DNA from: Thiothrix subterranea
GTDB taxonomy: Bacteria > Pseudomonadota > Gammaproteobacteria > Thiotrichales > Thiotrichaceae
Assembly: GCF_030930995.1 (NCBI RefSeq)
Contig: NZ_CP133217.1
Span: 1,850,001-1,914,000, forward strand
Direction of reading: 5' to 3'
DNA length: 64,000 nt
The position numbers were made by a program, and so were the translations under genes. This document shows, in pieces, positions 4,034 to 54,373 of the stretch. Within the stretch, counting starts at the first letter, position 1; every line of letters begins with the position of its first letter. The notes under the pieces were generated by a model. That model was not told the origin of the DNA and did no database searches. It saw only the letters and a program-made list of their open reading frames with translations.

Positions 4034-4048
4034 CCGCTAGGAGCAAAA

Positions 4049-5884
4049 ATGAATGAACATGTCAGCAGTTGGCTCGAAAGTTTTGAACGTCAGGCAATGA
4101 TTCGCCGCGCGTTGATGGTCAGCGGTAATATCATTGATTTGGCGTTTAACCGCCATAATCGCTTGATGCCGATTAATCGGGTAATAGAAGACAGTTTAAA
4201 AGCACAAGGCTTTTCACAAGTCGTTTTTTATTCTCGTTTGTCTGGCGTATCGGGTATTACGTCAAATGAATGGAATGATTTAACTCAAATAGGAATCCAA
4301 GGCGAACAAGGCGATTCCTATGATTTTGATGATGATCTCGAAACTCAAAATAGTGTTTCCAATAAGGGAAGGATTCCTATTGAACCGCAAAATTTCTTTG
4401 CTGTTGTGGAACAAGTGATGACCAAGACACAAAAACGAGTAGTGTTTGTGGTAGATTGGTCAAACTACCTGTTTGGACAAGTCAATGCATTAAGCGAAAC
4501 CGAACGAGCTTGGCTGCAACAAATTGCGACGAGTTTGCGGGATGCCGAGCAGACCAGTGGTGTCGAAGCGATGAGCCAACCGCAAAGTCTACTGATTTTC
4601 TTGTGTTCAGGCAATGCAGCCTTGCCGCCGTCTGCTTATTTAAATAATCCGTTGTTTGCAGAAATTTCGATTCCACTGCCAAGTATCCAAGAGCGTGAAG
4701 CAGCGATTTTAGCTCGCTTCATGCAGTTTAATGTGCTCGGTAATTTAAGTGCAGGTAGTAAAGATTTAGCGGATTTTGTTACATTGACCGATACGCTGAC
4801 GCTGCGAGACATTGACAATTTGGCACGCCTGTCTCGACAACAAGAAACGCAATTGAATTTGCAGAATTTGATTTCGCTTTATCGCTTTGGTAAACGCCAA
4901 TCACCGTGGGAAAAATTGAACTACCAACGATTGAAAGAAACAGCCAGCACGTTGCAGAAGCGAGTCAAAGGGCAAGATCAGGCGATTGAAGCAGTCAATA
5001 AAATTTTGATACGTGCTTACACTGGTTTATCAGGTTTGCAGCACTCTATCAAAGCACGCACACCAAAAGGGGCATTGTTTTTCGTTGGGCCAACGGGTGT
5101 AGGCAAAACAGAATTGGCTAAATCCTTGGCGCAGTTCTTATTTGGTGATGAAGATGCTTGTATTCGCTTTGATATGTCGGAATTTAACCACGAACACGCC
5201 GACCAGCGTTTAGTCGGTGCTCCACCTGGATATGTTGGTTTTGAGGAAGGTGGTCAGCTAACAAATGCGGTGAAAAAACGACCATTTTCGTTGCTATTAT
5301 TCGATGAAATTGAAAAGGCACATCCACGCATCTTAGATAAATTCTTGCAGATCTTGGAGGATGGGCGGTTAACTGATGGTAAAGGCGAAACTATTTCCTT
5401 TGCGGACACCTTTATTGTCTTTACATCGAATATCGGTGCGGCACAGATTCAGCCTGACACACATGACACGGTTTCTGAAAAGTTTAAGCAAGCAGTGCAA
5501 AATCATTTTAGAGATGTGTTAAATCGCCCCGAATTACTTGGACGAATTGGCGAAGCTAATATTATTCCGTTTAACTTTATGCAAGACCCTAACGTATTAA
5601 AAGCCATTGCTCGTGCGAAACTCAAACCCTTGACTATACGTTTGAAAGAAAAATGGGGTATTGAGAAACTAGTGTTTGCTGATGAAGAACGTGCGTTAGA
5701 TGTATTGGTGAAGCAAGTTAATCTGCAACACGGTGGTCGTGGTGTGTTAAATGTGTTAACCAAATCTTTATTTGATCCATTGGCTGAATTCTTATTTGAG
5801 CAAGGCGAACAGCCGCAACGCTTAAAAGGACGTACCTTAGTTATCGAGCAAGCGGGAAAAACCTTTGATTTTGAGCTGAACTGA
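4049..5884 (+). CDS. ClpB/ClpA-like AAA+ ATPase
   Basis: This is a 611-residue protein. The C-terminal half is a ClpA/B D2-type AAA+ module. Walker A 'FFVGPTGVGKTEL' lies at about 345-357, followed by the pore-loop region 'GAPPGYVGFEEGG', Walker B 'LLLFDEIEKAHP' at about 411-422, sensor 1 'FTSNIG' and an arginine-finger segment 'NRPELLGRIG' near 490. The N-terminal ~300 residues contain a degenerate AAA-like region ('VVFVVDWSNYLFGQ', 'LLIFLCSGN') without a Walker A, so probably one active ATPase ring. The Clp N-domain and the ClpP-binding loop are not apparent. Family members thread or remodel proteins. The TGA stop overlaps the ATG of the radical SAM gene by one base (TGATG), which indicates translational coupling. 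Confidence 0.8.
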   Translation: MNEHVSSWLESFERQAMIRRALMVSGNIIDLAFNRHNRLMPINRVIEDSLKAQGFSQVVFYSRLSGVSGITSNEWNDLTQIGIQGEQGDSYDFDDDLETQNSVSNKGRIPIEPQNFFAVVEQVMTKTQKRVVFVVDWSNYLFGQVNALSETERAWLQQIATSLRDAEQTSGVEAMSQPQSLLIFLCSGNAALPPSAYLNNPLFAEISIPLPSIQEREAAILARFMQFNVLGNLSAGSKDLADFVTLTDTLTLRDIDNLARLSRQQETQLNLQNLISLYRFGKRQSPWEKLNYQRLKETASTLQKRVKGQDQAIEAVNKILIRAYTGLSGLQHSIKARTPKGALFFVGPTGVGKTELAKSLAQFLFGDEDACIRFDMSEFNHEHADQRLVGAPPGYVGFEEGGQLTNAVKKRPFSLLLFDEIEKAHPRILDKFLQILEDGRLTDGKGETISFADTFIVFTSNIGAAQIQPDTHDTVSEKFKQAVQNHFRDVLNRPELLGRIGEANIIPFNFMQDPNVLKAIARAKLKPLTIRLKEKWGIEKLVFADEERALDVLVKQVNLQHGGRGVLNVLTKSLFDPLAEFLFEQGEQPQRLKGRTLVIEQAGKTFDFELN

Positions 5885-6453
5885 TGCACTGGCTAAATAT
5901 TGCACACATTATCGAAGCAACCCAAGCCGAAGGACCTGGATTGCGTTTTGTGGTGTGGGTACAAGGTTGCTTAAAGCGTTGCAAAGGTTGTTGTAATGTA
6001 AATTTATTACAGATTAAACCTGCTAGTTTAGTGCGTTCAGGGGATATTATTGAGCGGCTAAAAAATGTAGCTCAACAATATGACTTAGAAGGCATAACTT
6101 TTTTAGGGGGTGAACCACTATTGCAAGCTGAAGGGTTAGCTGATATAGCAGAGGCAGCGCAGAAATTAGGCTTATCAGTAATGGTTTTTTCAGGTTATGA
6201 AAAAGTTGAATTAGTCGAAAGCCGATTTATTGGCAGCCAACGACTACTTAATGCGACAGATCTACTGATTGATGGCGAATTTGACAATACGCAAATTGAA
6301 ACCGTGCGAAATTGGGTGGGATCGACTAATCAAAACATTCACTATTTAACTAATCGCTATTCACCCGAAATTGAAATCCGAGAATTAACTGTAACTAATG
6401 AGTGGCGGATTCATTTGCATGGGAGGATTAGTGGAAATGGGCTACCTTTTTAA
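5884..6453 (+). CDS. NrdG-like radical SAM activase
   Basis: This is a 189-residue radical SAM protein of the activating-enzyme type (Fer4_12/NrdG-like). The early motif 'VQGCLKRCKGCCN' gives Cx3Cx2C for a [4Fe-4S] cluster that cleaves S-adenosylmethionine. 'GITFLGGEPLLQ' is the SAM-binding GGEP motif. NrdG enzymes install a glycyl radical on anaerobic ribonucleotide reductase, but no nrdD lies here. The gene is instead translationally coupled to the ClpB-like ATPase gene, so its substrate may be another operon protein or a nucleotide; this is inference. It is the last gene of the operon; a convergent gene ends 58 bases downstream. Confidence 0.8.
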   Translation: MHWLNIAHIIEATQAEGPGLRFVVWVQGCLKRCKGCCNVNLLQIKPASLVRSGDIIERLKNVAQQYDLEGITFLGGEPLLQAEGLADIAEAAQKLGLSVMVFSGYEKVELVESRFIGSQRLLNATDLLIDGEFDNTQIETVRNWVGSTNQNIHYLTNRYSPEIEIRELTVTNEWRIHLHGRISGNGLPF

Positions 6454-6511: not shown

Positions 6512-7495
6512 TTAAAACTCTATGGATAAATTAGAATATTGAGATATAGTTAATTTATCTAAGTTTACTTTCCTTAATCCAAGATTTAAACATGTTGGCA
6601 ATTCTCCTAATGTAAACTTAACGAGTGGATTTGCTCCGAGATTTAATCTTCTTAGTGCCATAGAATTAACTTCGAACTCTTTAATTTTATTTCTATACAA
6701 TGATAGAACCTCAACATTTTTCGGAATCATATTTGCAGAATTAATATCAATGAAATTTTTGTATAAAAATAGAAACCTCAGTTTAACAAGAGTAGTTATA
6801 AAATCTGGAAAATAATCTAATCGACATGCTGATAGATTAATGCTATCTAAACCCGGTGGTAGACATTCTGCATCGATTTTTATATTTTCACATCCTCTTA
6901 AATCGAGTTTTTTCAAATTTTTAGGCAATCTACTAATTGTTAAGTTATTAAGAAACGGACACTCAATACTTTCTAATTTCTCTATTTCTGCTACTTGAGA
7001 GAAAATATAGTCTATTTCTTTCTTTGTTTTATTTTTCAATATATTTTTTGGGTAAGCTCTACTATCCAAAAAACTGATATGTCGAACATTACTACTAGTA
7101 TCAATGTTTAAATCGACAAGACACATTTTAGGTTGATAGCTAAGTCGATCAATATGCAATGGGGTTTTACAAAAAAAGATATTTCCTTCTCGTATTTTAT
7201 CACCATCATACCAATATATAGTTAAAATCTTATTCTTAGCTAAAAAAGAAATTTCTTTTATCAAATAGTCTCTAACTCTCCACTTATCTAAAGGCAAACC
7301 AACAAGATCCCCAAGAATATATATATTGAATTTCAAGCAATGACTTTGTTCGATTAATTTAAAAACATCCTTCAGATCTACTGGCAATAAATCGTCAGAA
7401 CAAATTGAAATAATCAAATAATCTATTTCACTATCATCATTAATAATAAAATTCATTAGCTTTTTACAACTAATACCTTCATACACCGTTGGCAT
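6512..7495 (-). CDS. Leucine-rich-repeat protein
   Basis: This is a 327-residue AT-rich gene. The first ~150 residues are not recognised. From about residue 180 irregular leucine-rich repeats appear ('LPKNLKKLDLRGCENIKID', 'LPPGLDSINLSACRLDYFP', 'IPKNVEVLSLYRNKIKEFE'). No signal peptide or membrane segment is seen, so it is likely cytosolic. It starts 3 bases after the nucleotidyltransferase stop and is the last gene of the minus-strand RiPP-like cluster. LRR domains bind proteins, so it could recognise a maturase partner or a peptide. Its role in the cluster is inferred only from position. Confidence 0.65.
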   Translation of the reverse strand: MPTVYEGISCKKLMNFIINDDSEIDYLIISICSDDLLPVDLKDVFKLIEQSHCLKFNIYILGDLVGLPLDKWRVRDYLIKEISFLAKNKILTIYWYDGDKIREGNIFFCKTPLHIDRLSYQPKMCLVDLNIDTSSNVRHISFLDSRAYPKNILKNKTKKEIDYIFSQVAEIEKLESIECPFLNNLTISRLPKNLKKLDLRGCENIKIDAECLPPGLDSINLSACRLDYFPDFITTLVKLRFLFLYKNFIDINSANMIPKNVEVLSLYRNKIKEFEVNSMALRRLNLGANPLVKFTLGELPTCLNLGLRKVNLDKLTISQYSNLSIEF

Positions 7496-7498
7496 ACA

Positions 7499-8224
7499 TC
7501 ACACAACTATATAGTTAACAAGTTTAGTCACTACATATTTAAAAGCTTCAATATCTAATATGCCTTGACCATTTATAAAATCTCCGATAATCAAAAATGA
7601 TTCATCAGACGTGTAAGCTGAGAGAGCTTTCAACCCTTCTGTTAACTCTCTCGTAAAAACACCATCGTAAAAAAATATTAACAGACACCCACACCTTGAA
7701 ATTAGTTTTATCAAGTTGTTTACTTTTGCCACCAAAAAATCACAGCTAACCATCTTTAAGTCAAGCCTAAATAAATATTCTGACTTTTTAACAACTAAGT
7801 TTAGATAGTATTGGTAAATAAAATAAACTTCACTAGCACTTAAGTTTATTGGTTTTTCCAGTAGAGATGAATGCTCGCCGCTGATTAACATGCCGTTCAT
7901 TTGTACATTATAGAGCACGAATTTATCTATAACACTATAATGAGTCGAAATAATATGTTTGTCGATATGAGGGTGGTTATTTTTAACAATTTTTTCATTG
8001 AAAGACTGAGTTATATTTTCTAATAATGACAGATTATAGCCGTTAGGCTTTTTCTTGAATAACAAGACCATATCAATATCCCATGGCTTGTAATTTTTGA
8101 TTTCTAAATTTCTACCAGCACTACCCCTGAGATATATTGAAACAACAAAATCATATGAAATATTATTAATACTATCAATGTATTCCCTATATATTTCTTG
8201 ATGCTGATCAAAATAACTAGGCAT
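7499..8224 (-). CDS. MNT-type nucleotidyltransferase
   Basis: This is a 241-residue protein. The segment 'YLRGSAGRNLEIKNYKPWDID' (written here as its key residues G-S, then W-D-I-D) matches the GSx(n)DxD signature of the polymerase-beta-like nucleotidyltransferase superfamily, in which the two Asp residues bind metal and NTP. The remainder is helical and could be a HEPN-like partner region. It overlaps the oxygenase gene by 8 bases and is followed 3 bases later by the LRR gene, so it is co-translated with the RiPP-like cluster. It could nucleotidylate the peptide product or confer immunity; neither role is shown by the sequence. A toxin-antitoxin role is an alternative, but no partner is visible. 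Confidence 0.7.
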   Translation of the reverse strand: MPSYFDQHQEIYREYIDSINNISYDFVVSIYLRGSAGRNLEIKNYKPWDIDMVLLFKKKPNGYNLSLLENITQSFNEKIVKNNHPHIDKHIISTHYSVIDKFVLYNVQMNGMLISGEHSSLLEKPINLSASEVYFIYQYYLNLVVKKSEYLFRLDLKMVSCDFLVAKVNNLIKLISRCGCLLIFFYDGVFTRELTEGLKALSAYTSDESFLIIGDFINGQGILDIEAFKYVVTKLVNYIVV

Positions 8225-9041
8225 TATATTTTTTTTTTATAAAAATCTTAATCATTTCAAATATAGAATCCATTTCAGATATAGATGAAACATTTACTTT
8301 AGCAGCATCTACAGTTAGATATGGTAAGTCAGACCTAAGACTACTATTATACTTAGCCAATTCCTTAATAGATTCATTTATAAATTCGTACACTCTTTGT
8401 CTGTTCACACCAATAGCAATATGTGAAGAGTAGGATTCTGTTGAAACGTCATGCCAGACACCTGGTGGTATATACAAAATGTCTCCAGCTTGTGTCTCTA
8501 TTTCATGGAGAACTTGTCTTGACTTTATGTTCTTATGTCCAAACTCATAAACCGGATTATCCTCTACCATACTACCCAGTTTCCACTTTTTAACTCCTTC
8601 AAGTTGATGAGCAAAAATATGATAGAAATCGTAGTGCTCGCTCGCTCCAAGTGAATCCTGATATGAAAAATAACCATTGATTGTAATAGTTGCTTCAGGG
8701 AAATAATTTAAAAACCATTTTTTTAAGCTTTCAAATTCATTAAAAAACCTCCATATTTCTAAAATCTTAATTGTTTTCCCTTGTAGACTTAAATTATCAA
8801 ACTTTGCTTGATCAATTATCTGAGAAAGTCCTTTCGTATTGGACTCTGTATATAAAAAAGGGTTTATAGATCCTCCACGCTCTACAATCCTAAATTGTGG
8901 GAACTCTATATTACTTTTCAGGATATGCGAGATAGGATCTTTTGGGATGACAATATCCATGTTTGATCTAAATTTGTATGGTTTTTTATTCCAATACTCA
9001 TTAAAGAATTCTGATTTATCTATATGGGATAAATAATCCAT
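8217..9041 (-). CDS. JmjC/cupin-4-like Fe(II)/2-oxoglutarate oxygenase
   Basis: This is a 274-residue protein using the ATG at 9041, which overlaps the maturase TGA stop (TGATG) and has an AGGAAAG site 7-9 bases upstream; a longer in-frame start inside the maturase gene is less likely. The motif 'SEHYDFYHIFAHQLEGVKKW' gives the HxD metal pair, and 'GDILYIPPGVWHDVS' gives the distal His, as in the JmjC/Cupin_4 (YcfD/RoxA) hydroxylases that hydroxylate protein side chains with Fe(II), O2 and 2-oxoglutarate. Its position directly after a radical SAM/SPASM maturase and a precursor peptide suggests it hydroxylates the peptide; this is inference. Confidence 0.8.
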   Translation of the reverse strand: MDYLSHIDKSEFFNEYWNKKPYKFRSNMDIVIPKDPISHILKSNIEFPQFRIVERGGSINPFLYTESNTKGLSQIIDQAKFDNLSLQGKTIKILEIWRFFNEFESLKKWFLNYFPEATITINGYFSYQDSLGASEHYDFYHIFAHQLEGVKKWKLGSMVEDNPVYEFGHKNIKSRQVLHEIETQAGDILYIPPGVWHDVSTESYSSHIAIGVNRQRVYEFINESIKELAKYNSSLRSDLPYLTVDAAKVNVSSISEMDSIFEMIKIFIKKKYNA

Positions 9042-10072
9042 CAAATCTTTCCTTCTGTTATACTCAACAGCGATTTTGATATGATAGGGCAACGAGGATC
9101 GCCTTGAGATAAATAACGTCGATTTATGCCGGGACATCCACCCTGACACATACTAAATACCCTACATTGATAACATATTGAGTTCTTATTGGGTAATATA
9201 TTTAAATTTGATAGAGAACCAGCAATACTTTCATAACTATCAATACTCAAATCTCCAATAATATTTTCTTCCATACATGCGCAAGGGTACACTGTGCCAT
9301 TTGGATTTATATACAATTTTGAACGACCAGTACCACAATTCGTTCCCATTACTGACATTTCTTCATTAGAATATTGTACGACTTTAGTTGACGCTATGCT
9401 TCGTATAGAAAACATTGGTTTTATCGATATTCTCTCATAATTAATGAAACTACCAGCTACAGTCTCACAAAGTACGTTCCAGTCAGTTGAAGAAATATCA
9501 TTACCATCATTGGCTCTTCCATACCCAACAATACGCTTAATTTTCCATGATGAAAATGCTATATCTTCTAGATTTTTATCCAAAAAACTTAGGCTATTGA
9601 CATTCTTATTAGATACTGTAGTTGCAACTACAACAGTAAAACCAATCTCTGATAATTTTGTAATATTCTCAAGAGTCTTCCTGTAAGTTTTGAGACCTCT
9701 TATAGATTCGTGAATCTCTCTATCGCCATCTATAGATACTTGAATTTTAACTTTATCTTTAAGATGTTCTATTTTTTCAAGCTTGTGTAAATTTAACCCA
9801 TTAGTGTTTATCATCACACTATCAAATAGATGATATGCCTTTTGTGAAATTTCAATAAATTTAGGATGTAAAGTAGGTTCACCTCCACTTAAAAGCATCT
9901 GGATTTTTTCTGTTTTCGCCGCGAACTCTGCGAATATCTTTTCGCAGAGTTCTAGAGACATAAACTCAGAAAAACTAGGTTCAGAACTTCGAATACAATG
10001 TGAGCAAGTTAAATTACACTTTCTTGTCAGTAGCAAATAGCACTGCTTTAAGAAAAATCTATTTTCTTTCAC
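9041..10072 (-). CDS. Radical SAM/SPASM peptide maturase
   Basis: This is a 343-residue protein with a GTG start at 10072. The N-terminal radical SAM motif is 'CNLTCSHC' (CxxxCxxC, residues ~19-26), with the SAM-binding motif 'LLSGGEPTLHP' near 61-71. The C-terminal part has the SPASM cysteine pattern ('GTNCGTGRSKLYINPNG', 'VYPCACME', 'CYQCRVFSMCQGGCPG') that binds auxiliary [4Fe-4S] clusters. SPASM maturases cross-link or epimerise ribosomally made peptides. A 47-codon Cys/aromatic-ended peptide gene lies 40 bases upstream on the same strand, and an oxygenase gene overlaps downstream. I call it the maturase of a RiPP-like cluster. The chemistry (thioether, C-C cyclophane or other) cannot be read from the sequence. 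Confidence 0.88.
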   Translation of the reverse strand: MKENRFFLKQCYLLLTRKCNLTCSHCIRSSEPSFSEFMSLELCEKIFAEFAAKTEKIQMLLSGGEPTLHPKFIEISQKAYHLFDSVMINTNGLNLHKLEKIEHLKDKVKIQVSIDGDREIHESIRGLKTYRKTLENITKLSEIGFTVVVATTVSNKNVNSLSFLDKNLEDIAFSSWKIKRIVGYGRANDGNDISSTDWNVLCETVAGSFINYERISIKPMFSIRSIASTKVVQYSNEEMSVMGTNCGTGRSKLYINPNGTVYPCACMEENIIGDLSIDSYESIAGSLSNLNILPNKNSICYQCRVFSMCQGGCPGINRRYLSQGDPRCPIISKSLLSITEGKI

Positions 10073-27392: not shown

Positions 27393-27596
27393 ATGGAAGC
27401 ACGCTTGGAAAAATTGGAACTCCTGTTCATGGAACAGGAGCAAACCCTTGAAGCCTTAAGTCGCCAGATTTACCTGCAACAAAAAGACATTACTTCGGCG
27501 TTGCTGGAAATCGAACGGCTTAACGAAAAGCTCAAATCCATCACCCCATCTGCCGTCGGTAGTCAGGCGGATGAAACTCCACCCCCGCATTATTGA
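27393..27596 (+). CDS. slyX: SlyX-family protein
   Basis: This is a 67-residue coiled-coil protein: 'RLEKLELLFMEQEQTLEALS' is the SlyX opening, and it ends near 'DETPPPHY', the conserved Pro-Pro-His-Tyr tail. Its function is unknown. It is 6 bases after argG. Confidence 0.9.
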   Translation: MEARLEKLELLFMEQEQTLEALSRQIYLQQKDITSALLEIERLNEKLKSITPSAVGSQADETPPPHY

Positions 27597-27611
27597 AAAG
27601 GAGATATTCAA

Positions 27612-29033
27612 ATGCTGACACATCTTCGTATCAAAAACTTCAAAGCATGGGAAGATACCGGCGACATACGGCTTGCGCCCTTAACAGTCATTTTTGGTGC
27701 GAATAGTGCGGGGAAAAGCAGCATGGGACACTTGCTTTTAGCACTTAAACAAACTGCGCTGTCTGTAGATAGACGTAAAGCACTACATTTAGGATTAGGA
27801 GATACTAATTCTCTTATTAATTTAGGTACGTATGAGGAATGTGTACATCAACATGATACTCAGAAAAGTATTGGAATTGAAATGGCATGGAATACTTCAA
27901 ATGAACTCATTGCAGAAAGCACACAGCATAATTCCGAATTTAAGGGAAGCAAACTTGAAATAAACGTTGAATTTGAACATGCTAAGAAAAATCAACATAC
28001 AACTGTAAAATCACTTTCGTATACCCTTGATAAAAACAAAGAAAGTGAGTTAGATGTTACTTTTTCAAAAAAAAGAAAAAGCACTAATGAATTTGAATTG
28101 TCTTCAAAAAAATACCCACTTAAAAGGACTCAAGGTCGAGTGTGGCCATTATATGAGCCTGAAAAGTTTTATCACATAACTGAACAAACACGGTCTAAGT
28201 TTCAAAATGCATCATTTTTAGGTGATTTCGCATTAGAAACAGAAGCGACTCTAAAAAACATATATTATCTTGGTCCACTGAGAGGTTATCCAGAACGTTT
28301 TTATCAATGGGCAGGTGATACCCCAGAAGATGTGGGAAACAAGGGAGAAAAGGTTATTGCGGCTTTATTGGCAGCAAAAAATCGAAATTTACATCAAAAG
28401 TATATAAAAAGAGAGAAGCAAGAAGCAAAAGATAAGAAGACATTTTCATTTCCTCATTTGATTGCAAAATGGCTAAAAGACATTGGGCTTATAGAGGAGT
28501 TTTCTATTCATCCAATTGCAGAAGGGAGAAATGAACACGAAGTTCTCATTCGTACTAGTCCGAACGCAAGTACTGTAAAAATTACTGATGTTGGCTTCGG
28601 CGTTTCTCAAGTTTTACCTGCATTGGTACAAGCATTTTATACACCAAGAAATTCAACAGTGCTTATGGAGCAACCTGAAATACACTTACATCCACAGGTG
28701 CAAGCAGGTCTTGCAGATGCATTTATCGAAGCAATCCACATTCATGAAGATAAAATACCACGTAATGTACAATTGATAATAGAAAGTCATTCAGAGCATT
28801 TTCTAACACGTTTGCAACGTAGAATAGCAGAAGAAAAAATAAAACCTGAAGAGGTGGCCATTTATTTTATTGATAATAAAGAGGGTAAAGCCACCATCGA
28901 AGAACTTTGTATCAACGAGTACGGTGAAATTGAGAACTGGCCTGAGAACTTCTTTGGTGATGAAATGGGTGATCTTGCAGCTCAAGCACTTGCAGCTATT
29001 GAACGCCGTCAACGAAATCAAGCAAAAGGATAA
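27612..29033 (+). CDS. AAA15/DUF3696 ATPase (OLD/SMC-like)
   Basis: This is a 473-residue ATPase. The N-terminus 'LRIKNFKAWEDTG' and Walker A 'VIFGANSAGKSSMGHLLLAL' (~29-48) match the AAA_15/OLD-type ABC-ATPases. Signature and Walker B lie in 'GFGVSQVLPALVQAF' and 'STVLMEQPEIHLHPQVQAGL'. The H-switch is 'LIIESHSEHFLTRLQRRI', and the C-terminus is DUF3696-like. The TOPRIM domain of OLD nucleases is absent. It overlaps the PIN gene by one base (TAATG). The block is AT-rich against argG and rsmJ on its two sides, so it was likely acquired. Such ATPases act as sensors in several phage-defence systems. Confidence 0.85.
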   Translation: MLTHLRIKNFKAWEDTGDIRLAPLTVIFGANSAGKSSMGHLLLALKQTALSVDRRKALHLGLGDTNSLINLGTYEECVHQHDTQKSIGIEMAWNTSNELIAESTQHNSEFKGSKLEINVEFEHAKKNQHTTVKSLSYTLDKNKESELDVTFSKKRKSTNEFELSSKKYPLKRTQGRVWPLYEPEKFYHITEQTRSKFQNASFLGDFALETEATLKNIYYLGPLRGYPERFYQWAGDTPEDVGNKGEKVIAALLAAKNRNLHQKYIKREKQEAKDKKTFSFPHLIAKWLKDIGLIEEFSIHPIAEGRNEHEVLIRTSPNASTVKITDVGFGVSQVLPALVQAFYTPRNSTVLMEQPEIHLHPQVQAGLADAFIEAIHIHEDKIPRNVQLIIESHSEHFLTRLQRRIAEEKIKPEEVAIYFIDNKEGKATIEELCINEYGEIENWPENFFGDEMGDLAAQALAAIERRQRNQAKG

Positions 29034-29557
29034 TGGCAATAATGAATTGCATCATTATCGACACTAACGTTATCTTAGTTGCCAGTGGTCAACATCAAGA
29101 TATTTCCTTAGAATGCCATAAAAATTGCATACTGCAACTTCAGTTAATTGAAAAGCATGGACATGTTGTCATTGATGATGGTTATCGAATTCTTCAGGAA
29201 TACAGTAATAAAACCACGCCAAATCGCCCAAAGAATTTAGGCGATGCATTTGTGAAGTGGCTACAACGCAATAAAGGAAATGCCTCACGATGCACTCAAA
29301 TATCAATTACAGAACATCATGAACGAGGTTTTGAGAGTTTTCCTGATGACCCTGAGTTGCATAGTTTTGATCCACCAGATCGCAAGTTTGTTGCAGTATC
29401 CGCAGCGCATCCTGAAAAACCTCCAATCCTGCAAGCTGCTGATTGCAAGTGGCTTGATTGGAAACTAGCCTTAAATAGACAAGGTATCAACGTAGAATTT
29501 ATCTGCAAAGATGATATTGAGCGCTTCCATAAGAAGAAGTTCGGCAGTAATGGATAA
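29033..29557 (+). CDS. PIN-domain nuclease
   Basis: This is a 174-residue protein. 'CIIIDTNVILVASGQ' gives the first PIN Asp (D11, counting from the ATG at 29033). A central acidic region follows, and 'PDRKFVAVSAAHP' and 'ILQAADCKWLDW' supply later Asp residues. PIN domains are Mg-dependent RNases, often attacking tRNA or mRNA. It overlaps the ATPase gene by one base and the RNA ligase gene by 8 bases, so the three are made in fixed ratio. No VapB-like antitoxin is present. Confidence 0.75.
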   Translation: MAIMNCIIIDTNVILVASGQHQDISLECHKNCILQLQLIEKHGHVVIDDGYRILQEYSNKTTPNRPKNLGDAFVKWLQRNKGNASRCTQISITEHHERGFESFPDDPELHSFDPPDRKFVAVSAAHPEKPPILQAADCKWLDWKLALNRQGINVEFICKDDIERFHKKKFGSNG

Positions 29558-30260
29558 GTTTTTCCGTTTTCCGCACACTCCACATATCGCTTGGCTAGGC
29601 AAAGATGAGCCGCGTAGCGATAAAGTACTGTCACAAGAAGAAGTTAATGCATTTCTAATAAATGAAGTGATTGTCGAGGAAAAACTGGATGGCGCAAATC
29701 TGGGAATTTCTTTCAATAAGGCAGGTGAAGTACAACTGCAAAATCGTGGATCGTACCTTCTTCCCCCTTATAGTGGACAGTTTTTGAAACTTGGGCAATG
29801 GCTTGATATTCACTTAGATAAATTGTTTGACTATCTGGAAGATCATCACATTCTATTCGGCGAATGGTGTGCAGCTAAACATTCCCTTTCCTATGAAAAT
29901 TTACCTGATTGGTTTATGGCTTTTGATGTTTATGACAAAATTCAGCAGCAATTTTGGTCTACGTCGCGCCGAAACCATTTGGCTAAATCTATCGGTATAT
30001 CTCACATTCCCTGTATTCAACAAGGTCGTCTTAGCCTAGATGATTTAAAACAGATTGTTATGACCCAACCCAGTCAGTTTCGCCAAGGAATCATGGAAGG
30101 AATCATTATCCGTAAAGAATCTGCTGACTGGATATTGGATAGAGCAAAACTAGTACGCCCAGATTTTCTGCAAACGATTGATTCACATTGGAGGGGGCGG
30201 CTTATTGAGTGGAATCAAGTATTACCCCCTTTTACAACAAACGTTGTTATTCAAAATTAG
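29550..30260 (+). CDS. Rnl2-like RNA ligase
   Basis: This is a 236-residue protein that uses ATG 29550 inside the end of the PIN gene; the upstream frame extension is overlap. The nucleotidyl-transfer motif I is 'EEKLDGANLGIS' with the AMP-accepting Lys at K45. 'GEWCAAKHSL' and 'AFDVYDK' are motif III-like, 'MEGIIIRKE' is motif IV and 'DRAKLVRPDF' is motif V. All motifs are intact, so an active ATP-dependent ligase is expected (PF09414). T4 Rnl2 relatives seal nicks in RNA. Together with a PIN nuclease it suggests a cut-and-reseal module. rsmJ begins 5 bases downstream. Confidence 0.85.
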   Translation: MDKFFRFPHTPHIAWLGKDEPRSDKVLSQEEVNAFLINEVIVEEKLDGANLGISFNKAGEVQLQNRGSYLLPPYSGQFLKLGQWLDIHLDKLFDYLEDHHILFGEWCAAKHSLSYENLPDWFMAFDVYDKIQQQFWSTSRRNHLAKSIGISHIPCIQQGRLSLDDLKQIVMTQPSQFRQGIMEGIIIRKESADWILDRAKLVRPDFLQTIDSHWRGRLIEWNQVLPPFTTNVVIQN

Positions 30261-30265
30261 GCATA

Positions 30266-30994
30266 ATGACTGGCGAAACACTTCAAGTAGAGCAATTATC
30301 TCGCTATCAACTGGTGCAAACCCCTGCACGGCTGGAACTACACGATACCCACGACCCCAAAGTGGGTGCTGTGTACGTCGATTTCGTGGAAGGCAAAGCC
30401 CAATACCGCCGTAAATTCGGTGGCGGCAAAGGGCAGGACATTGCCAAAGCGATTGGCTTACACAAATTCAAACATCCCCATGTGATTGACGCGACCGCTG
30501 GTTTAGGGCGCGAATCCTTCGTGCTGGCGACCTTGGGTTGCACGGTGACGTTGCTGGAACGTTCGCCGGTGGTTCACGCCTTGCTTGCCGATGGTTTGAA
30601 ACGGGCGCTGGCGAGTGATGATCAGGAAACGCTGGAAATTGCTTCGCGCATGACCTTGTATCCGGCAGATGCGCACGTATGGCTAACAGAACTTCCGGCA
30701 GTGGCATGGCCTGATGTAATTTATCTCGACCCCATGTTTCCCGATCGGCAGAAGTCCGCTTTGGTGCAAAAAGAGATGCGTTTTTTTCACGAAGTAGTGG
30801 GAGCCGATCCCGACAGTGATGGATTGTTAGCATTGGCTCAGGAACGCGCTAAGCGGCGGGTCGTCGTTAAGCGCCCACGTCACGCGCCTGAATTACACGG
30901 CTGTAAACCGGCTTTTGTCATCAGTGGTAAAACCGTGCGTTATGATGTTTATTTAGGCAAGGCAACTGCGCAAGAACACGCCCATCAGGAATAA
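30266..30994 (+). CDS. rsmJ: 16S rRNA m2G1516 methyltransferase
   Basis: This is a 242-residue SAM-dependent methyltransferase that modifies G1516 of 16S rRNA. The ATG at 30266 removes a 19-codon overlap with the RNA ligase gene. Motif I is 'VIDATAGLGRESFVLATLG', and the catalytic region includes 'VIYLDPMFP'. Its end overlaps the 3' part of a convergent small gene. Confidence 0.93.
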   Translation: MTGETLQVEQLSRYQLVQTPARLELHDTHDPKVGAVYVDFVEGKAQYRRKFGGGKGQDIAKAIGLHKFKHPHVIDATAGLGRESFVLATLGCTVTLLERSPVVHALLADGLKRALASDDQETLEIASRMTLYPADAHVWLTELPAVAWPDVIYLDPMFPDRQKSALVQKEMRFFHEVVGADPDSDGLLALAQERAKRRVVVKRPRHAPELHGCKPAFVISGKTVRYDVYLGKATAQEHAHQE

Positions 30995-47346: not shown

Positions 47347-50007
47347 ATGGATGTTAAGCCGTATTTTCGGTATTGGGGTAAGGCGAAGCCGGGGCTGGAT
47401 GAGGCGGAGGCGCAATGGCATTTGTTGCCGTTTCATTCGTTGGATGTGGCTGCGGTCGCCAGCGTTTGGTGGGACGAAAGCCCCGCAATCCAACACAGCT
47501 TCATGCAACACGGCGGTAAACTTTCCACTAAACAGATGAAAGCATGGGTGATTTTTTTCATTGCCTTGCATGACTACGGCAAGTTCGACATTCGTTTCCA
47601 GCGTAAAGCTTCGCGTGTATGGGAGGCTTTGCAACCAAATTTAGCCAAAAATGTTGCGCGTATGCCAACGATTGAAGCCTGTAAAGGTTACGATCATGGC
47701 AGTGCTGGGCTGTATTGGTTTGAGCAAGATCGTGTTGAGGAGGACTCAGCTTCTGAGCTTGACTGGATGTTACATATTGTTGATCTGGTCAATGTGGTCG
47801 ATGATGCTCAACAAACATGGATGGCTTGGATTAAACCCGTTACAGGACATCACGGTTTTGTTTACGCGCTGGATCACCCAACGCCCGAAAGGTCACTGCA
47901 TAGCACGGTTGATAAACCGATTGCGCAACAGGACAAAACGGCTCGGTTGGCATGGCTGGATGAACTGGAAAGGCTGTTCCTGAAACCTGTTGGCTTGAGT
48001 TTGCAAGATACCCCACCCACACCATCGCCTCTGCTTGCTGGTTTTTGCTCGGTAGCGGATTGGTTGGGTTCGCGTTCCGATGAAGTCAATTTCTGCTACA
48101 AGGCTGACCCCGTTGACGATCTCCGTGATTACTTTGATCAGAAATGTCGTGAGGATGCCCAGCGAGTATTGGTGTTAGCAGGGATTAACGGTAAAGCAAA
48201 GCCTTTCCTTGGTGTGCAAGCCTTATTGAAGCGGGATTATCAGCCGCGTCAATTGCAAACCCTCGTTGATGATTTACCCGTTACGCCGGGGCTAACGATT
48301 GTTGAAGCCCCTACAGGTTCGGGAAAAACCGAAATGGCATTGGCTTATGCGTGGCGTTTGTTGGCAGCGAATCACGCGGACAGCATTGTATTTGCCATGC
48401 CGACACAAGCAACTGCCAATGCCATGTTGCAACGGCTGGAAAAAATCGCCACGACCTTGTTTGAGGATAAGCCCAATCTGATTTTGGCGCATGGTCATGC
48501 CCGTTTTAACGATAACTTCCTCAAACTCAAACAGATAGGCAAGACGGTTCAGGAAAATGAAGAGGCTTGGGTGCAGTGCAATGAATGGCTGGGGCAAAGC
48601 CGCAAACGTATCTTTCTGGGGCAAATCGGTATTTGTACGGTTGACCAAGTATTGGTGTCGGTCTTGCCCGTCAAACACCGTTTTGTGCGCGGCTTTGGGG
48701 TAGGGCGTAGCGTACTAATTGTGGACGAAGTTCACGCCTATGATGCGTATATGTACGGTTTGCTGGAAGCGGTGCTAAAGGCGCAGCATGAGGTGGGAGG
48801 TTCGAGCATTCTGCTATCCGCGACCTTGCCGCAATCGCTGAAAAATCAATTATTGGCAACCAGCGGTAAGGCGATTGAAACCGCTCAAACCCATGCCCCC
48901 TATCCGCTGATTTCATGGTCAGATGGTAAAGCAAACCATGCTTTCACGTTGCCTGACAATGAACAGCCGCCTTTGCGTCAAGTGCAGGTTGAATGCCATG
49001 AAAGTGAGGATTTGTTGCCAGATGCCGCACTTCGCCAGCGGATTATTGATGCTGCGGAACAGGGGGCGCAGGTAGCCATTATTTGCAATTTGGTTGATGT
49101 TGCCCAGCAACTGGCGCGTGATTTACAAAAGCTCACGGCGTTACCCGTTGATATTTTTCATGCCCGTTATTGCTTGCATGATCGTCAGAAAAAAGAAGAT
49201 ACGGTACTCAAACATTATGGAGCAGAAGGCAAGCGTGCCAGTGGACGGATATTGGTGGCGACTCAAGTGATTGAACAGTCGCTGGACGTTGATTTCGATT
49301 GGCTCATTACTCAGTTATGCCCAGTGGATTTGTTATTCCAGCGTATGGGGCGTTTGCATCGGCATGAGCGTTCCCGCCCGACAGGGTTTGAATCAGCACG
49401 TTGCACGGTTTTGCTACCGATGGGCAATGACTACGGTACGCATGGTTTGATTTATAGAAATACCCGCGTGATGTGGCGGACAGCACAAAAGCTGCAAACG
49501 TGCCCTGATCAGATTATTGATTTTCCAGCGGCTTACCGTGACTGGATTGAGCCGATTTATAGTGAAGAGGCTTGGGGAACTGAACCAGAGGTCATTGAAA
49601 CAGGTTTTGCTTTGTTTGAAGAAAAATTGGCGGAAAAACGGATTCTGGCAAGGCAGATGCTCAAATGGGCGGAAGATGTGGCTTTGATGGATGACGATGA
49701 AAATGTTCGCGCTGTTACCCGTGATGGTGAGTTCAATGTCAGCGTTATCCCTTATCTGGATACTGCTCGCGGCAAGCAATTGCTGGATTCAAGCATTCTG
49801 GATTCTCTGAGTGAATGGCAACAAGCCGAGGCACTAGCGATGAATATCGTCGGTGTACCTAAAAGCTGGGGGAAACTGTTGCCTGAGAAGGATAAAGAAG
49901 GGCGCGTTTGGCTTGCCATGCAGCAGGGTGGTGAGTTTTGGAAAGCCTGTAGCAAAGAGATTTGGTTTACCTATCACCCCGTCTGGGGCATGGAGAAGAC
50001 GGTATGA
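47347..50007 (+). CDS. cas3: CRISPR-associated helicase/nuclease Cas3 (type I-E)
   Basis: This is an 886-residue protein. The HD nuclease domain has 'FHSLDVAAV' and 'ALHDYGKFD' (~78-86). The helicase has Walker A 'EAPTGSGKTEM' (~320), a DEAD-type box 'IVDEVHAYD' and motif VI 'QRMGRLHRHER'. It unwinds and degrades target DNA after recruitment by Cascade. It overlaps cse1 by 4 bases (ATGA), heading the cas operon. Confidence 0.96.
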   Translation: MDVKPYFRYWGKAKPGLDEAEAQWHLLPFHSLDVAAVASVWWDESPAIQHSFMQHGGKLSTKQMKAWVIFFIALHDYGKFDIRFQRKASRVWEALQPNLAKNVARMPTIEACKGYDHGSAGLYWFEQDRVEEDSASELDWMLHIVDLVNVVDDAQQTWMAWIKPVTGHHGFVYALDHPTPERSLHSTVDKPIAQQDKTARLAWLDELERLFLKPVGLSLQDTPPTPSPLLAGFCSVADWLGSRSDEVNFCYKADPVDDLRDYFDQKCREDAQRVLVLAGINGKAKPFLGVQALLKRDYQPRQLQTLVDDLPVTPGLTIVEAPTGSGKTEMALAYAWRLLAANHADSIVFAMPTQATANAMLQRLEKIATTLFEDKPNLILAHGHARFNDNFLKLKQIGKTVQENEEAWVQCNEWLGQSRKRIFLGQIGICTVDQVLVSVLPVKHRFVRGFGVGRSVLIVDEVHAYDAYMYGLLEAVLKAQHEVGGSSILLSATLPQSLKNQLLATSGKAIETAQTHAPYPLISWSDGKANHAFTLPDNEQPPLRQVQVECHESEDLLPDAALRQRIIDAAEQGAQVAIICNLVDVAQQLARDLQKLTALPVDIFHARYCLHDRQKKEDTVLKHYGAEGKRASGRILVATQVIEQSLDVDFDWLITQLCPVDLLFQRMGRLHRHERSRPTGFESARCTVLLPMGNDYGTHGLIYRNTRVMWRTAQKLQTCPDQIIDFPAAYRDWIEPIYSEEAWGTEPEVIETGFALFEEKLAEKRILARQMLKWAEDVALMDDDENVRAVTRDGEFNVSVIPYLDTARGKQLLDSSILDSLSEWQQAEALAMNIVGVPKSWGKLLPEKDKEGRVWLAMQQGGEFWKACSKEIWFTYHPVWGMEKTV

Positions 50008-51533
50008 ATTTATTGACTGATAGTTGGATACCCGTGCGACCACAAGCAGGTGGAGCAGGGCAACAAATCAGCCTGCCAGCGTTGTTGTGTGGTAGTGAAC
50101 GCTGGGAACTGGCATTGCCGCGTGATGATATGGAACTGGCGGCGTTGCAATTGTTGATTTCTCTGGTGCAAGTGTTACTGCCACCGACTGATAAGAAGCA
50201 ATGGGCAGAACGGGTTGCAAAGCCGCTATCCGTGGAGGCAGTAAATGCCGCAACGAAAGACTATCAGGAATGGTTTCAGCTTGATCATCCCGAATATCCA
50301 TTTATGCAGGTCAAGAAGGTTGCAGCTAAAGACCCAACGCCGATGGATAAGCTGTTAGCGGGTTTGAACAGTTCGACCAATAGCCGTTTTGTGAATGAGC
50401 CGGATTTGGCAAAAGGCTTGTGCTTCGGCTGTGTGGCGGTTGCCTTGTATAACCTTGCTAACAACGCGCCCAGTTTTGGCGGTGGTTTCAAATACGGTGT
50501 CCGTGGCAGTTGTCCGGTTTCTACGTTTGCCCAAGGGACTGATTTACGTTCGACTATCTGGCTGAATGTGTTGAGCCAAGAATCATTGGATGAATACATT
50601 CCCGACTGGAAAGCGCAAGCAGCCCAGCCGCCAACATGGGTTGAGCCAATCAAGGAAAAAGCCACGATTCCAGCACACAGTATTGGTTTCTTGCGTGGTT
50701 TGTTGTGGCAACCGGGGCATACGGTGTTGTCTCCGCCGGAAAAATCAGGGCAATGCAGTTGTTGTGGTCACGAAGTTGATAAATTATTTACCAGCTTCAA
50801 CAAGGCGAAATTTAACTACACCATCGACGGGTTGTGGGAACATCCGCACTCTCCGCAGGTGTTGACCTTGAAGCAGGGTAATACCGAAACCCGTTATGTG
50901 AGTTTTACGCAGCCCATTCCAGCATGGACTCAATTGAGTCGTTATGTCGTCAAGCGCGAAGTTGGCAAGGGCGAACAAGGTCAAAAACCGGCAATGGTCA
51001 TCCAACAGTTGCAGAAGTATTTGCAAAACCATGCAGGTAAATTTGAGTTACTGGTCGGCGGTTATCGCAACAATCAGGCAGCTATTATCGAGCGTCGCCA
51101 CGAAGTTTTGACCCTGAGTCAGGGCTGGGAAACCCACGCGAAAGACGTGCATGAATTGGTTGCTCACGGGCTGAAATATAAAACGGCCTTACGCAAAGTC
51201 TTGTTTGTCTGCTCGGAAGGCATCAAGGAAAAAGACCGCAAGCTCAAAGGTACGGGTTTGAAGTTACAAGAAGTCGGTGAAACCCAATTTTACCGTCGTT
51301 CAGAACACCTGATGACTAAGGCTTTAGCAGACATTGATTTCAGCAATACGTTGCCCACCTTTGTGATGCTGGATAAAGGGCTGAAGAAAATCTGTGAGGC
51401 TGTTTTTACCGAACTGACCACACCTTATGAGCATGATCCAGAACTGTTTCGCACACTTGCCATTACACGCCGTAGCTTACAAAAGCACATCAGGGAAATC
51501 CGCATCAATCCACCTCAAGAGGATGCAGCATGA
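50004..51533 (+). CDS. casA: Cascade large subunit Cse1 (CasA/Cas8e)
   Basis: This is a 509-residue protein; ATG 50004 overlaps the cas3 stop and gives 'MNLLTDSWIPVRPQ', typical of Cse1. It recognises the PAM and recruits Cas3. A 'CSCCGHEVD' segment may bind zinc. It overlaps cse2 by 4 bases. Confidence 0.95.
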   Translation: MNLLTDSWIPVRPQAGGAGQQISLPALLCGSERWELALPRDDMELAALQLLISLVQVLLPPTDKKQWAERVAKPLSVEAVNAATKDYQEWFQLDHPEYPFMQVKKVAAKDPTPMDKLLAGLNSSTNSRFVNEPDLAKGLCFGCVAVALYNLANNAPSFGGGFKYGVRGSCPVSTFAQGTDLRSTIWLNVLSQESLDEYIPDWKAQAAQPPTWVEPIKEKATIPAHSIGFLRGLLWQPGHTVLSPPEKSGQCSCCGHEVDKLFTSFNKAKFNYTIDGLWEHPHSPQVLTLKQGNTETRYVSFTQPIPAWTQLSRYVVKREVGKGEQGQKPAMVIQQLQKYLQNHAGKFELLVGGYRNNQAAIIERRHEVLTLSQGWETHAKDVHELVAHGLKYKTALRKVLFVCSEGIKEKDRKLKGTGLKLQEVGETQFYRRSEHLMTKALADIDFSNTLPTFVMLDKGLKKICEAVFTELTTPYEHDPELFRTLAITRRSLQKHIREIRINPPQEDAA

Positions 51534-51997
51534 GTAATGAACACCCCAATTTCGCAGGCTTTTATGCTGCGTGGGAATCACTGAACAAAAAACCGGGGGC
51601 AACCGCTGATATTCGGCGGGTTTCGTCAATGGATGAACTGCTGGATTTGCCTGCTTTTTATCGCTTGGTCGAGCCGTTTGGTTGGCACGCTGATTTGAAA
51701 CCTTGGGATAAAGAACGTTGGCAGCGGCTAGTTTTCTTCGTCAATCAGGTGACAGATAAAGGCGAAAACTCATTGGGAAAAGCCTTGGCACTATCCGGCA
51801 AAATCAGTGATAAACGCTTGTTCCAGATTGTTCGCGCTGATTCGCCTAACGACATTACCCAGCTTCGCCGCTTGTTGAAACAGGCAGAACCGGAAGTAAG
51901 CTGGCAAAAAATGGCTACACAATTGTGGTATTGGGATCTCCGCCAAAAGCGCAGCTTGCTGGAAGATTTCGTACTGAACCAAAAGACCAAAGATTAA
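51530..51997 (+). CDS. casB: Cascade small subunit Cse2 (CasB/Cas11)
   Basis: This is a 155-residue helical protein that forms a dimer in the belly of Cascade. 'PAFYRLVEPFGWH' and the Arg/Lys-rich helices fit. ATGA overlap with cse1. Confidence 0.93.
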   Translation: MSNEHPNFAGFYAAWESLNKKPGATADIRRVSSMDELLDLPAFYRLVEPFGWHADLKPWDKERWQRLVFFVNQVTDKGENSLGKALALSGKISDKRLFQIVRADSPNDITQLRRLLKQAEPEVSWQKMATQLWYWDLRQKRSLLEDFVLNQKTKD

Positions 51998-52015
51998 CGT
52001 ATTCGAGGATTTATC

Positions 52016-53110
52016 ATGTCACACAACTTCATCAATTTTCATGTGCTGATTTCCCATAGCCCATCCTGCTTGAACCGGGATGATATGAATATGCAGAAGA
52101 ACGCGGTGTTTGGCGGCAAACGTCGGGTGCGTGTTTCCAGCCAAAGCCTGAAACGGGCGATGCGTAAAAGCGATTACTACCAAGCCAATGTGGGGCAAAG
52201 CAGCATCCGCACCAAACACATTGCCGATCTGAACAAGCAGGCGATTGAATACTTGAACGGGCGTTACGATGCCGCGCTGGTGACGCAGACCATTGGTTTG
52301 ATTGCCGGTAAGGATTTGAACGCGGGCGATGAAAAAGGCGATGCAGTTGCGCCGTGGGCATTGGAAGAAATTGCGTGGTTCTGTGAACAGGTGAAGCAAG
52401 CACAGGACAAGGGTGAAGACGAAAAAGCTATCAAGAAAAAACTGAAAGACTCCACCGAAGCGATGCGCCAAGCATTAGCCAGTTGCGTTGATATTGCCTT
52501 GTCGGGGCGTATGGCTACATCCGGTTTGATGAGTGAGTTCGGTAAGGTCGATGGTGCATTAGCCGTGGCTCACGCGATTACTACCCATGAAGTCAGCGAT
52601 TCGGATATTGATTGGTTTACGGCAGTAGATGACTTGCAAGAACTGGGATCAGGTCATTTGGATACTCAAGAATTTTCCAGCGGCGTGTTCTACCGTTATG
52701 CCAGCTTGAACATTGGACAGCTACAGGAAAACATGGGTGGCGCAAGCCGCGAACAGGTTTTGGAGATTGCGGTACACGTTCTGCATATGCTGGCAACGGT
52801 TGTGCCATCCGCTAAACAACAAACCTTTGCGGCGCACAATCTGGCAGATTTGGCGTTGGTGTCCTTCTCTGATTTGCCGGTTTCGTTGGCGAATGCGTTT
52901 GAAAGCCCGGTTAGACAGAAAGGGGATGGTTTCCTCAAACCATCATTGGAATATCTGAACAATTACTGGAGCAAGATTCACAAAGGCTACGGTCTGAATG
53001 AACGCTGTGCTGAATTTACCTTGGCGGATGATCTGACGATTCCGGCGGGTATGATCAAACAGGATTCACTCGATGCACTGAAAAACTGGGTACGCCAGAA
53101 CGGGGAATGA
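52016..53110 (+). CDS. casC: Cascade backbone subunit Cas7e (CasC)
   Basis: This is a 364-residue RAMP protein forming the crRNA-binding backbone in six copies. '[20 protein letters not shown]' and '[15 protein letters not shown]' are hallmark sequences. Confidence 0.96.
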
Positions 53111-53112
53111 TC

Positions 53113-53787
53113 ATGCGTGACTATTTGATCCTGAAATTGCAGGGAGTCATGCAGGCATGGGGGGAACATACCTTTGAAGGTTTGCGCCCTTCCACCAACT
53201 TCCCGACCCGTAGTGCATTGACCGGTTTATTGGCGGCTTGTCTGGGGATTGACCGTAATGACCGCCAGCAACAACAAGCCTTGGCAAACAGTTTTCTGTA
53301 TGCCGTGCGGCAAGATGAAACTGAGCATAGTGTCATCAAAATGACGGATTACCACACGGTCAAAGATGCGCGGGAAGATTACGTTGGCTTGAAGTCTCAT
53401 GACACCATCATTACCCAGCGGGAATATTTGCTGGATGCTGCGTTCACAGTGGCTATCTGGAATACCGAAGGTGCGGAATATTCGCTTGAGCAGTTAAAGG
53501 CGGCGGTATGCCAACCCCGTTACACACCGTTTTTGGGGAGGCGCAGTTGCCCGATTACGCGCCCCTTGTATGAAAGCCGTGTACAGGCGATTAATTCCGA
53601 TGAGGCTTTGAAGCTGATTGAACCCGTCGCCGGTGTGATTTACAGCGAAGAAGACTTGCCCGATGTGATAGGCAGAAACAAGCATCGCCATCGTGTGCGG
53701 GATATGCCGTTACCGAATCAGCCGCGCCAATTTGCCAGCCGTATGGTGTACGTCTACGGAAAGGAAAATGCCGATGTATCTGAGTAG
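53113..53787 (+). CDS. casD: Cascade subunit Cas5e (CasD)
   Basis: This is a 224-residue RAMP protein that binds the 5' handle of the crRNA. ATG 53113 gives 'MRDYLILKLQGVMQAWGEHT', matching CasD starts, with GGGGA 6 bases upstream; the ATG at 53107 is too close to that site. 'FLGRRSCPIT' is typical. It overlaps the Cas7 stop region closely. Confidence 0.94.
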   Translation: MRDYLILKLQGVMQAWGEHTFEGLRPSTNFPTRSALTGLLAACLGIDRNDRQQQQALANSFLYAVRQDETEHSVIKMTDYHTVKDAREDYVGLKSHDTIITQREYLLDAAFTVAIWNTEGAEYSLEQLKAAVCQPRYTPFLGRRSCPITRPLYESRVQAINSDEALKLIEPVAGVIYSEEDLPDVIGRNKHRHRVRDMPLPNQPRQFASRMVYVYGKENADVSE

Positions 53788-54373
53788 ATTGTTACTAACG
53801 GGTGAGCAATTGCATAACCCTTATGAAATTCACCGTACCTTGTGGTTGGCTTTCCCGGATGCGGCGGAACAGTCACGCGATTTTTTGTTTCGTGTAGAAC
53901 AACGCACATCCAGACAAGTACAGGTGTTGGTGCAGTCACAACGGCAACCCACCGCTAATGTTGAAAATGCCCGTTTGTTGGCAAGCAAGGCACTGGAGTT
54001 GAATTTACTCGAAGGTAGCCAGTTGCGTTTTATGCTGATGGCTAACCCAGTCAAAACCATTGCGGACGAGCAAGGGCGATTGGATAGCAAGGGCGAAGTG
54101 AAAAAGTGCCGTGTTCCACTGATTAAGGAAGAGGAACAGATTGCATGGCTGAAACGCAAGCTGGAAGGGGCGGCATTGGTTAACATCGTGGAAATCGAGA
54201 AACAGTTGCCACTCCATTTCCGCAAGGGTAGTAAGCCGGGGAAAATCCAGCCGTATGCCTTCAAAGGGGTGTTGCAGGTGGCAGATGCGCAAGGTTTGCA
54301 GGATTTATTGCAACAGGGAATTGGTCACGCAAAGGCATTCGGGTGTGGTCTATTATCATTGGCTCGAACCTGA
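53774..54373 (+). CDS. casE: crRNA endoribonuclease Cas6e (CasE)
   Basis: This is a 199-residue endonuclease that cuts the repeat hairpin. ATG 53774 gives 'MYLSRLLLTGEQLHNPYEIH', matching CasE, with AAGGA 8 bases upstream and inside the casD end. The His of 'PYEIHRTLWLAFP' is the catalytic region, and the Gly-rich loop is 'GIGHAKAFGCGLLSLA'. Confidence 0.94.
   Translation: MYLSRLLLTGEQLHNPYEIHRTLWLAFPDAAEQSRDFLFRVEQRTSRQVQVLVQSQRQPTANVENARLLASKALELNLLEGSQLRFMLMANPVKTIADEQGRLDSKGEVKKCRVPLIKEEEQIAWLKRKLEGAALVNIVEIEKQLPLHFRKGSKPGKIQPYAFKGVLQVADAQGLQDLLQQGIGHAKAFGCGLLSLART

Follow-up and report, generated by a model that had tools for sequence, protein, structure and literature searches.

An ATPase, a predicted PIN-fold nuclease and an RNA ligase form a candidate immune cassette related to HEC-03 in Thiothrix subterranea

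The genome of Thiothrix subterranea contains a compact cassette of three overlapping genes that encode an ABC-type ATPase, a predicted PIN-fold nuclease, and an RNA ligase. It lies at positions 27612-30260 of the window, by which we mean the whole 64,000-nt stretch of DNA analysed here (NZ_CP133217.1, positions 1,850,001-1,914,000). The ATPase and the PIN protein correspond to HEC-03, a catalogued candidate defence system, and sequence comparisons suggest that the ligase belongs to this system as an old third component. In our estimate the chances are even that HEC-03 and its dedicated ligase constitute a mobile, operon-like immune cassette, in which the PIN protein would cut RNA and the ligase would reseal it. 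RNA cutting with a built-in repair enzyme, as proposed in an earlier sequence-only reading of this DNA, stays the best interpretation, albeit one that we infer.

The cassette is inserted between slyX and rsmJ (Table 1), and its context in the window, argG-slyX-rsmJ, is not that of a defence operon. In 13 of 16 congeners argG, slyX, and rsmJ are contiguous and the site is empty; in the closest cassette-free congener (G001) the stop codon of slyX and the start codon of rsmJ overlap as TGATG. Compared with G001, the inserted segment substitutes for 7 bp of the slyX/rsmJ junction, and through the codons at its right end rsmJ acquires a new N-terminus. The G+C content of the cassette is approximately 0.33-0.42, as opposed to 0.52-0.55 in the flanks. 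Within the cassette, the ATPase and PIN genes overlap by 1 nt and the PIN and ligase genes by 8 nt. The ligase reading frame could also open at 29511, but this longer version is a mechanical extension, and the ATG at 29550 was taken as the start. A sister genome (G006) carries the same cassette with ~96% identity, and the distribution within the genus is patchy (2/16 genomes). Reading frames, base composition, and empty sites all agree with the sequence-only reading, which had described three overlapping genes in an AT-rich insertion at this site, and its assignment of the products as ATPase, PIN protein, and RNA ligase was borne out by Pfam, PADLOC, and the predicted structures.

Table 1. Features of the window, with positions counted from its first nucleotide
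Feature	Position	Strand	Evidence and remarks
AT-rich block, possible defence or conflict operon	62..6453		
Very AT-rich block	6512..10072	-	
slyX	27393..27596	+	Left flank; Pfam SlyX, E=5.4e-17; adjoins rsmJ in congeners
Inserted segment, ~2.7 kb	27597..30300	+	Defined against the empty G001 site; AT-rich
AAA_15/DUF3696 ABC-type ATPase, HEC-03B family	27612..29033	+	473 aa; PADLOC, Pfam, motif conservation
PIN-fold nuclease (predicted), HEC-03A family	29033..29557	+	174 aa; PADLOC, AlphaFold model
ATP-dependent RNA ligase (PF09414), nucleotidyltransferase domain only	29550..30260	+	236 aa; Pfam, AlphaFold model
rsmJ	30266..30994	+	Right flank; Pfam SAM_MT, E=3.5e-88
Type I-E CRISPR-Cas operon	47347..59500		Cas3e, E=9e-184; Cas7e, E=6e-102
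tmRNA gene	63663..64000		Cut off by the window end

Other parts of the window also contain genes of interest. The type I-E CRISPR-Cas operon is located ~17 kb from the cassette, and its array has a 61-nt period with 55 copies in the stretch searched. The first AT-rich block (G+C 0.39-0.44), a possible defence or conflict operon, contains a fragment resembling the C-termini of MkoA/MkoC, two proteins that match nothing in PADLOC, an ATPase similar to PDC-M37B/DolB, and, as judged by eye, a radical-SAM activase-like protein. The second block (G+C 0.28-0.33) codes for a radical-SAM protein with weak resemblance to viperin models (E=4e-17), which likely reflects general radical-SAM kinship, and for a protein that looks by eye like a nucleotidyltransferase.

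The ATPase matches the PADLOC model HEC-03B over residues 1-469 (E=1.1e-135). It contains the Pfam domains AAA_15 (3.5e-27) and, at the C-terminus, DUF3696 (7.3e-14), and it has a Walker A motif (GANSAGKSS) and a Walker B-type motif (MEQPEIHLH). Weaker kinship in PADLOC extends to NsnB, PDC-M55A, and AriA (2e-29), and the profiles of OLD/GajA and AbiL are matched as well, in line with the earlier suggestion that the protein is akin to the sensor ATPases of defence systems. The PIN protein matches HEC-03A (E=1.9e-24, residues 5-160). Taken alone it has no match in Pfam; four members of its family match PIN_3 (best 3.7e-5). In structural comparisons of its AlphaFold model (pLDDT 95), the closest structures are VapC PIN toxins (Z 10.1, 124 residues, 3.0 Å). 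Foldseek alone returned nothing under E=0.001 with this model, and a sequence search of the PDB gave nothing with the PIN protein alone and only chance matches with the PIN profile. Four acidic residues, D10, E56, D116, and D137, lie where PIN proteins usually have them and are conserved in 87-88 of the 88 sequences; the first of them had been miscounted as D11. No relatives of the PIN protein were found in phage records. The HEC-03B and HEC-03A genes stand side by side, which is the arrangement by which HEC-03 is recognised. This part of the cassette, which the sequence-only reading could not tie to a named defence system, thus has a name.

The ligase is a member of PF09414 (E=3.5e-33; 115.6 bits vs a 27-bit cut-off), and none of the PADLOC models matches it. 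Its motifs include K45-L-D-G, where the lysine number given earlier is correct when counted from the ATG at 29550, as well as FGEW, EGIIIR, and RAKLVR. The K, D, and G of the K-x-D-G motif are invariant in all 84 sequences. The AlphaFold model (pLDDT 92) matches the nucleotidyltransferase (NTase) domains of the Naegleria RNA ligase (Z 16.6) and of T4 Rnl2 (Z 16.0). It aligns to the NTase domain only, and neither an OB-fold nor an Rnl2-type C-terminal domain is present in the 236 residues. T4 Rnl2 requires its C-terminal domain for full nick sealing, and the sealing competence of the NTase-only cassette ligase is therefore uncertain. No second PF09414 ligase was found in the genome that contains the window. 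Phages commonly encode ligases of this superfamily.

The conservation of the gene set was assessed by scanning a PIN alignment against 84,980 species genomes; the best 80 of 151 matches were analysed, and the ATPase and ligase were sought at these loci by profile search. Among these best 80 of 151 matches, the order ATPase-PIN-ligase is complete at 70 loci and the ligase adjoins the PIN gene at 77. PIN and ligase occur without a detected ATPase at seven of the 80 (six Aquabacterium loci and one contig edge), PIN and ATPase without a ligase at two (L044 and L069), and at one (L085) the contig stops after the PIN gene. The sequence-only reading had depended on the three genes being found together elsewhere, as they are at the 70 complete loci. 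Junctions between the genes are mostly 4-nt overlaps in the relatives. As a safeguard against a bias toward close relatives, one set of 398 genomes of the phylum was searched with the HEC-03A model and, in a separate run, with the ligase profile. HEC-03A was detected in 15 of these unselected genomes, with an adjacent ligase in 11; those lacking it are G249 and G071, which are the best matches to the PADLOC A model, G131, and G403. In the PIN tree, a quick reconstruction with many weak forks, the simplest history places the ligase at the base of the main clade, which has 90 sequences, with single losses in L007, L044, L069, and L131. Relatives of the cassette, several of them in metagenome bins, span about nine phyla (Pseudomonadota, Myxococcota, Acidobacteriota, Verrucomicrobiota, Nitrospirota, Thermodesulfobacteriota, Cyanobacteriota, Spirochaetota, and Actinomycetota). 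Plasmid-borne copies occur in Aeromonas, Azotobacter, Tistrella, and Rhodococcus, and the Aeromonas triad has no close DNA relative in E. coli genomes.

From these proteins and their joint inheritance we infer a trigger, an RNA target, an end chemistry, and a repair step. The AriA/OLD-like ATPase would be the sensor and would keep the PIN nuclease inactive, until infection, signalled perhaps by an inhibitor of the enclosing restriction or BREX system, frees it. The released nuclease would cut RNA, most likely structured host RNA such as tRNA or rRNA. From what is generally known of the fold, metal-dependent cleavage by PIN enzymes should leave 5'-phosphate and 3'-hydroxyl ends. If the cassette nuclease hydrolyses RNA in this manner, it would create precisely the ends that the ligase would require, and the ligase could reseal the cuts. 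Leaky cutting would then be tolerated, and the arrest would be reversible if the cell survives. By analogy, a trigger logic like that of PARIS or PrrC is suggested by the relatedness of HEC-03B to AriA and by the placement of relatives inside restriction-modification (R-M) and BREX operons. The resealing of the PIN protein's own cuts would follow as a step from joint inheritance to joint function.

This joint inheritance is closest between nuclease and ligase. Their pairwise distances correlate with r=0.75, a value reached in 0 of 2000 permutations, and with 0.62 when the ATPase is held constant; the correlations are 0.64 for PIN and ATPase and 0.55 for ligase and ATPase. Between the window and G006, dN/dS is 0.07 for the ATPase, 0.10 for the PIN protein, and 0.53 for the ligase, the last value being imprecise because it derives from only 15 changes. 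In Aquabacterium, PIN and ligase genes without the ATPase are found at six loci (L058, L074, L075, L081, L083, and L091). They occupy one chromosomal site, beside an ExeA-like gene and with other housekeeping genes around, and are under purifying selection (dN/dS 0.04-0.18). It is possible that they represent a domesticated RNA cut-and-seal pair.

Intact PIN and ATPase genes with a lost or broken ligase gene were found at four loci (L005, L044, L069, and L131). On an Aeromonas plasmid, an IS256 element splits the ligase gene, and the PIN and ATPase genes are identical to those of an intact copy. A further plasmid, from Acinetobacter soli (L007:6639-9296), carries an HEC-03 ATPase split into two reading frames and an intact PIN gene, has no ligase, and shows an HNH nuclease downstream in the setting of a helicase and N6-methylase operon. 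The ligase was considered as an essential antidote and rejected in this role: it is not indispensable, because at four loci the PIN and ATPase genes persist although the ligase is lost or broken. The tolerated loss speaks for repair after activation over an antidote that is needed constantly. It would also fit a different and unlikely scenario, in which the ligase takes part in the attack and, with the PIN protein, cuts and mis-joins, circularises, or adenylates RNA ends of the phage or host. In its favour, PIN and ligase are the tightest pair and persist without the ATPase, an NTase-only ligase could adenylate ends without sealing them, and resting cells can do without the ligase as an antidote. 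However, all ligase motifs are conserved, including those for sealing, and we know of no precedent in defence for a ligase as part of the attack.

Relatives of the ligase also exist apart from PIN genes. In seven records (G136, G249, G275, G387, G062, and plasmids of Pseudomonas and Variovorax) they adjoin a protein with HD and AAA_33 domains, which on the basis of sequence is read as a phosphatase plus kinase that would heal RNA ends. Two further PIN-less ligase matches, G042 (a fragment) and G247 (weak), have neither a PIN nor an HD-AAA_33 partner. Two-gene pairs of ligase and HD-AAA_33 protein, as seen at L138, L139, L140, L162, and L163, on chromosomes and plasmids, are each likely an RNA end-healing and sealing unit. 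The HD-AAA_33 profile, which finds this protein in the seven records, had no match at any of 94 PIN/ligase loci with flanks of varying length, and no HD-AAA_33 relative was found in the genome that contains the window. At PIN/ligase loci a healing partner would not be required, because PIN cuts should leave 5'-phosphate and 3'-hydroxyl ends that such a ligase can join. The ligase family appears to have switched partners, exchanging an end-healing enzyme for a nuclease.

It is improbable, in our view, that the cassette combines two separate functions, with the ATPase and PIN protein as the effector and a ligase that repairs RNA cut by phage nucleases, colicins, or other tRNA-cutting defences. 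Ligases of the superfamily are indeed widespread as stand-alone repair enzymes, phages included, and in pairs with HD-kinase proteins, and a two-gene HEC-03 without the ligase exists (G249 and G071). A separate function is at odds, however, with the co-diversification of PIN and ligase beyond the share of the ATPase, with the ATPase-less pairs, and with the absence of an end-healing partner, which most ribotoxin cuts would require. The repair of RNA cut by phage, which the sequence-only reading had offered as its alternative, is the weaker reading, since the ligase still comes after the PIN gene at loci that lack the ATPase.

In relatives, the triad recurs inside defence operons with touching gene ends. 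The neighbours scanned were hand-picked, large, and co-directional, so that this nesting is a matter of examples and not of measured enrichment. In BREX operons, PglX is located directly upstream in G151 and BrxHI directly downstream in G139 (both E=0 to BREX models). Three loci of one clade (L031, L043, and L051) have a type I HsdS upstream and HsdR downstream. At L135 the triad is flanked by an HmaB-like methylase and a PLD-helicase, and at L015 by a type IIG enzyme and a DruE-like helicase; it follows a type IIG-like enzyme at L046 and L078, and by sequence similarity also at L055, and precedes PsyrT at L020 and L063. Similarity-linked methylases are present at 12 loci and the same HNH nuclease at eight. 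Most related loci have no obvious defence neighbour, and some have housekeeping neighbours. A protein of ~660 residues, of which the tested copy matched nothing in Pfam or PADLOC, is encoded upstream of the triad at six loci (L033:3574-5568, L039:3592-5571, L080, L069, L026, and L019).

These neighbourhoods weigh on the question whether the cassette serves immunity at all. It might instead process RNA or arrest the cell under stress, as a controlled toxin whose cuts are resealed, and be a frequent passenger of mobile or defence regions. This is quite unlikely, even though the PIN and ligase pair is chromosomally fixed at one site in Aquabacterium and housekeeping genes neighbour the cassette in the window and at other loci. 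The repeated nesting in BREX, R-M, Hma-like, and Druantia-like operons, the plasmid locations, the patchiness within the genus, and the kinship of the ATPase with AriA and OLD all argue against it. FEN-type DNA nucleases belong to the PIN-like folds, and ligases of the nucleotidyltransferase type are able to join mixed ends, but a DNA or RNA-DNA hybrid substrate that the PIN protein nicks and the ligase seals is very unlikely, as the best structural matches are VapC RNases and, ahead of DNA ligases, RNA ligases.

An immune cassette that cuts and reseals RNA would resemble several known systems in part. The closest is HEC-03 (Hma-embedded candidate 3; PADLOC-DB 2.0.0), whose models A and B are matched over nearly their full length. 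Relatives of the cassette, though not the cassette in the window, occur inside methylase/helicase defence operons as well. The difference is the ligase, which is missing from the PADLOC models: the closest A-model matches, G249 and G071, are ligase-free, in contrast to the large clade that had a ligase ancestrally. PMC12988326, which cites the source preprint (Payne et al. 2024), describes several HECs as active in assays; the part considered here does not name HEC-03. In PARIS, the tRNase AriB is restrained by AriA and set free by a phage protein such as Ocr; this metal-dependent enzyme cuts tRNA with a demonstrated 3'-hydroxyl and an expected 5'-phosphate end (PMC12409363). The cassette shares with PARIS an ATPase related to AriA (E=2e-29, although HEC-03B fits far better), a separate small RNase effector, and the expected 5'-phosphate/3'-hydroxyl ends, but AriB is a Toprim protein, whereas the cassette effector has a PIN fold and is accompanied by a ligase.

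PrrC is silenced by the type I R-M system in which it is encoded, and phage inhibition of this system sets it free; phages bring an RNA ligase against PrrC, and RloC excises a base to defeat ligation (PMC3710099). Common to PrrC/RloC and the cassette are an ATPase-controlled RNase, for PrrC in or near R-M systems, and RNA ligation as the opposing reaction. In PrrC and RloC, however, a HEPN nuclease is fused to the ATPase and the ligase is that of the phage, whereas the cassette has separate proteins, a PIN nuclease, and a ligase encoded by the host. VapC PIN toxins share the fold and the four-acid active site. In place of a VapB-type antitoxin the cassette has the ATPase gene upstream of the PIN gene, and the PIN protein is presumably controlled by the ATPase instead of an antitoxin. 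The ligases of the plasmid-borne HD-AAA_33 pairs belong to the same family (~30% identity). These pairs and the Pnkp-Rnl-Hen1 RNA repair systems carry end-healing enzymes, whereas the PIN-linked ligases carry a nuclease, and the additional C-terminal domain of T4 Rnl2 sets Rnl2-type ligases apart from the cassette ligase.

RNA-cutting defences are generally viewed as one-way, in that the cell stops or dies and an RNA ligase is supplied by the phage. It is as likely as not that a host cassette here both cuts RNA and undoes the damage, as a reversible immunity at the RNA level that has taken over the repair step of phages, or, alternatively, includes the ligase in the attack. The joint inheritance of nuclease and ligase in a widespread cassette would make reversible, self-repairing immunity directly testable. 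The catalogued two-gene HEC-03 is a three-gene system in many genomes, and current detection misses the third part. The open literature that we found, which did not extend to Burroughs and Aravind 2016 and Payne et al. 2024, describes no defence composed of an ATPase, a PIN protein, and an RNA ligase. The system is not categorically new, since its ATPase and PIN protein are an already catalogued candidate; within the literature covered, what appears to be new is the ligase as its third component, the PIN and ligase pairs without an ATPase, and the exchange of partners within the ligase family.
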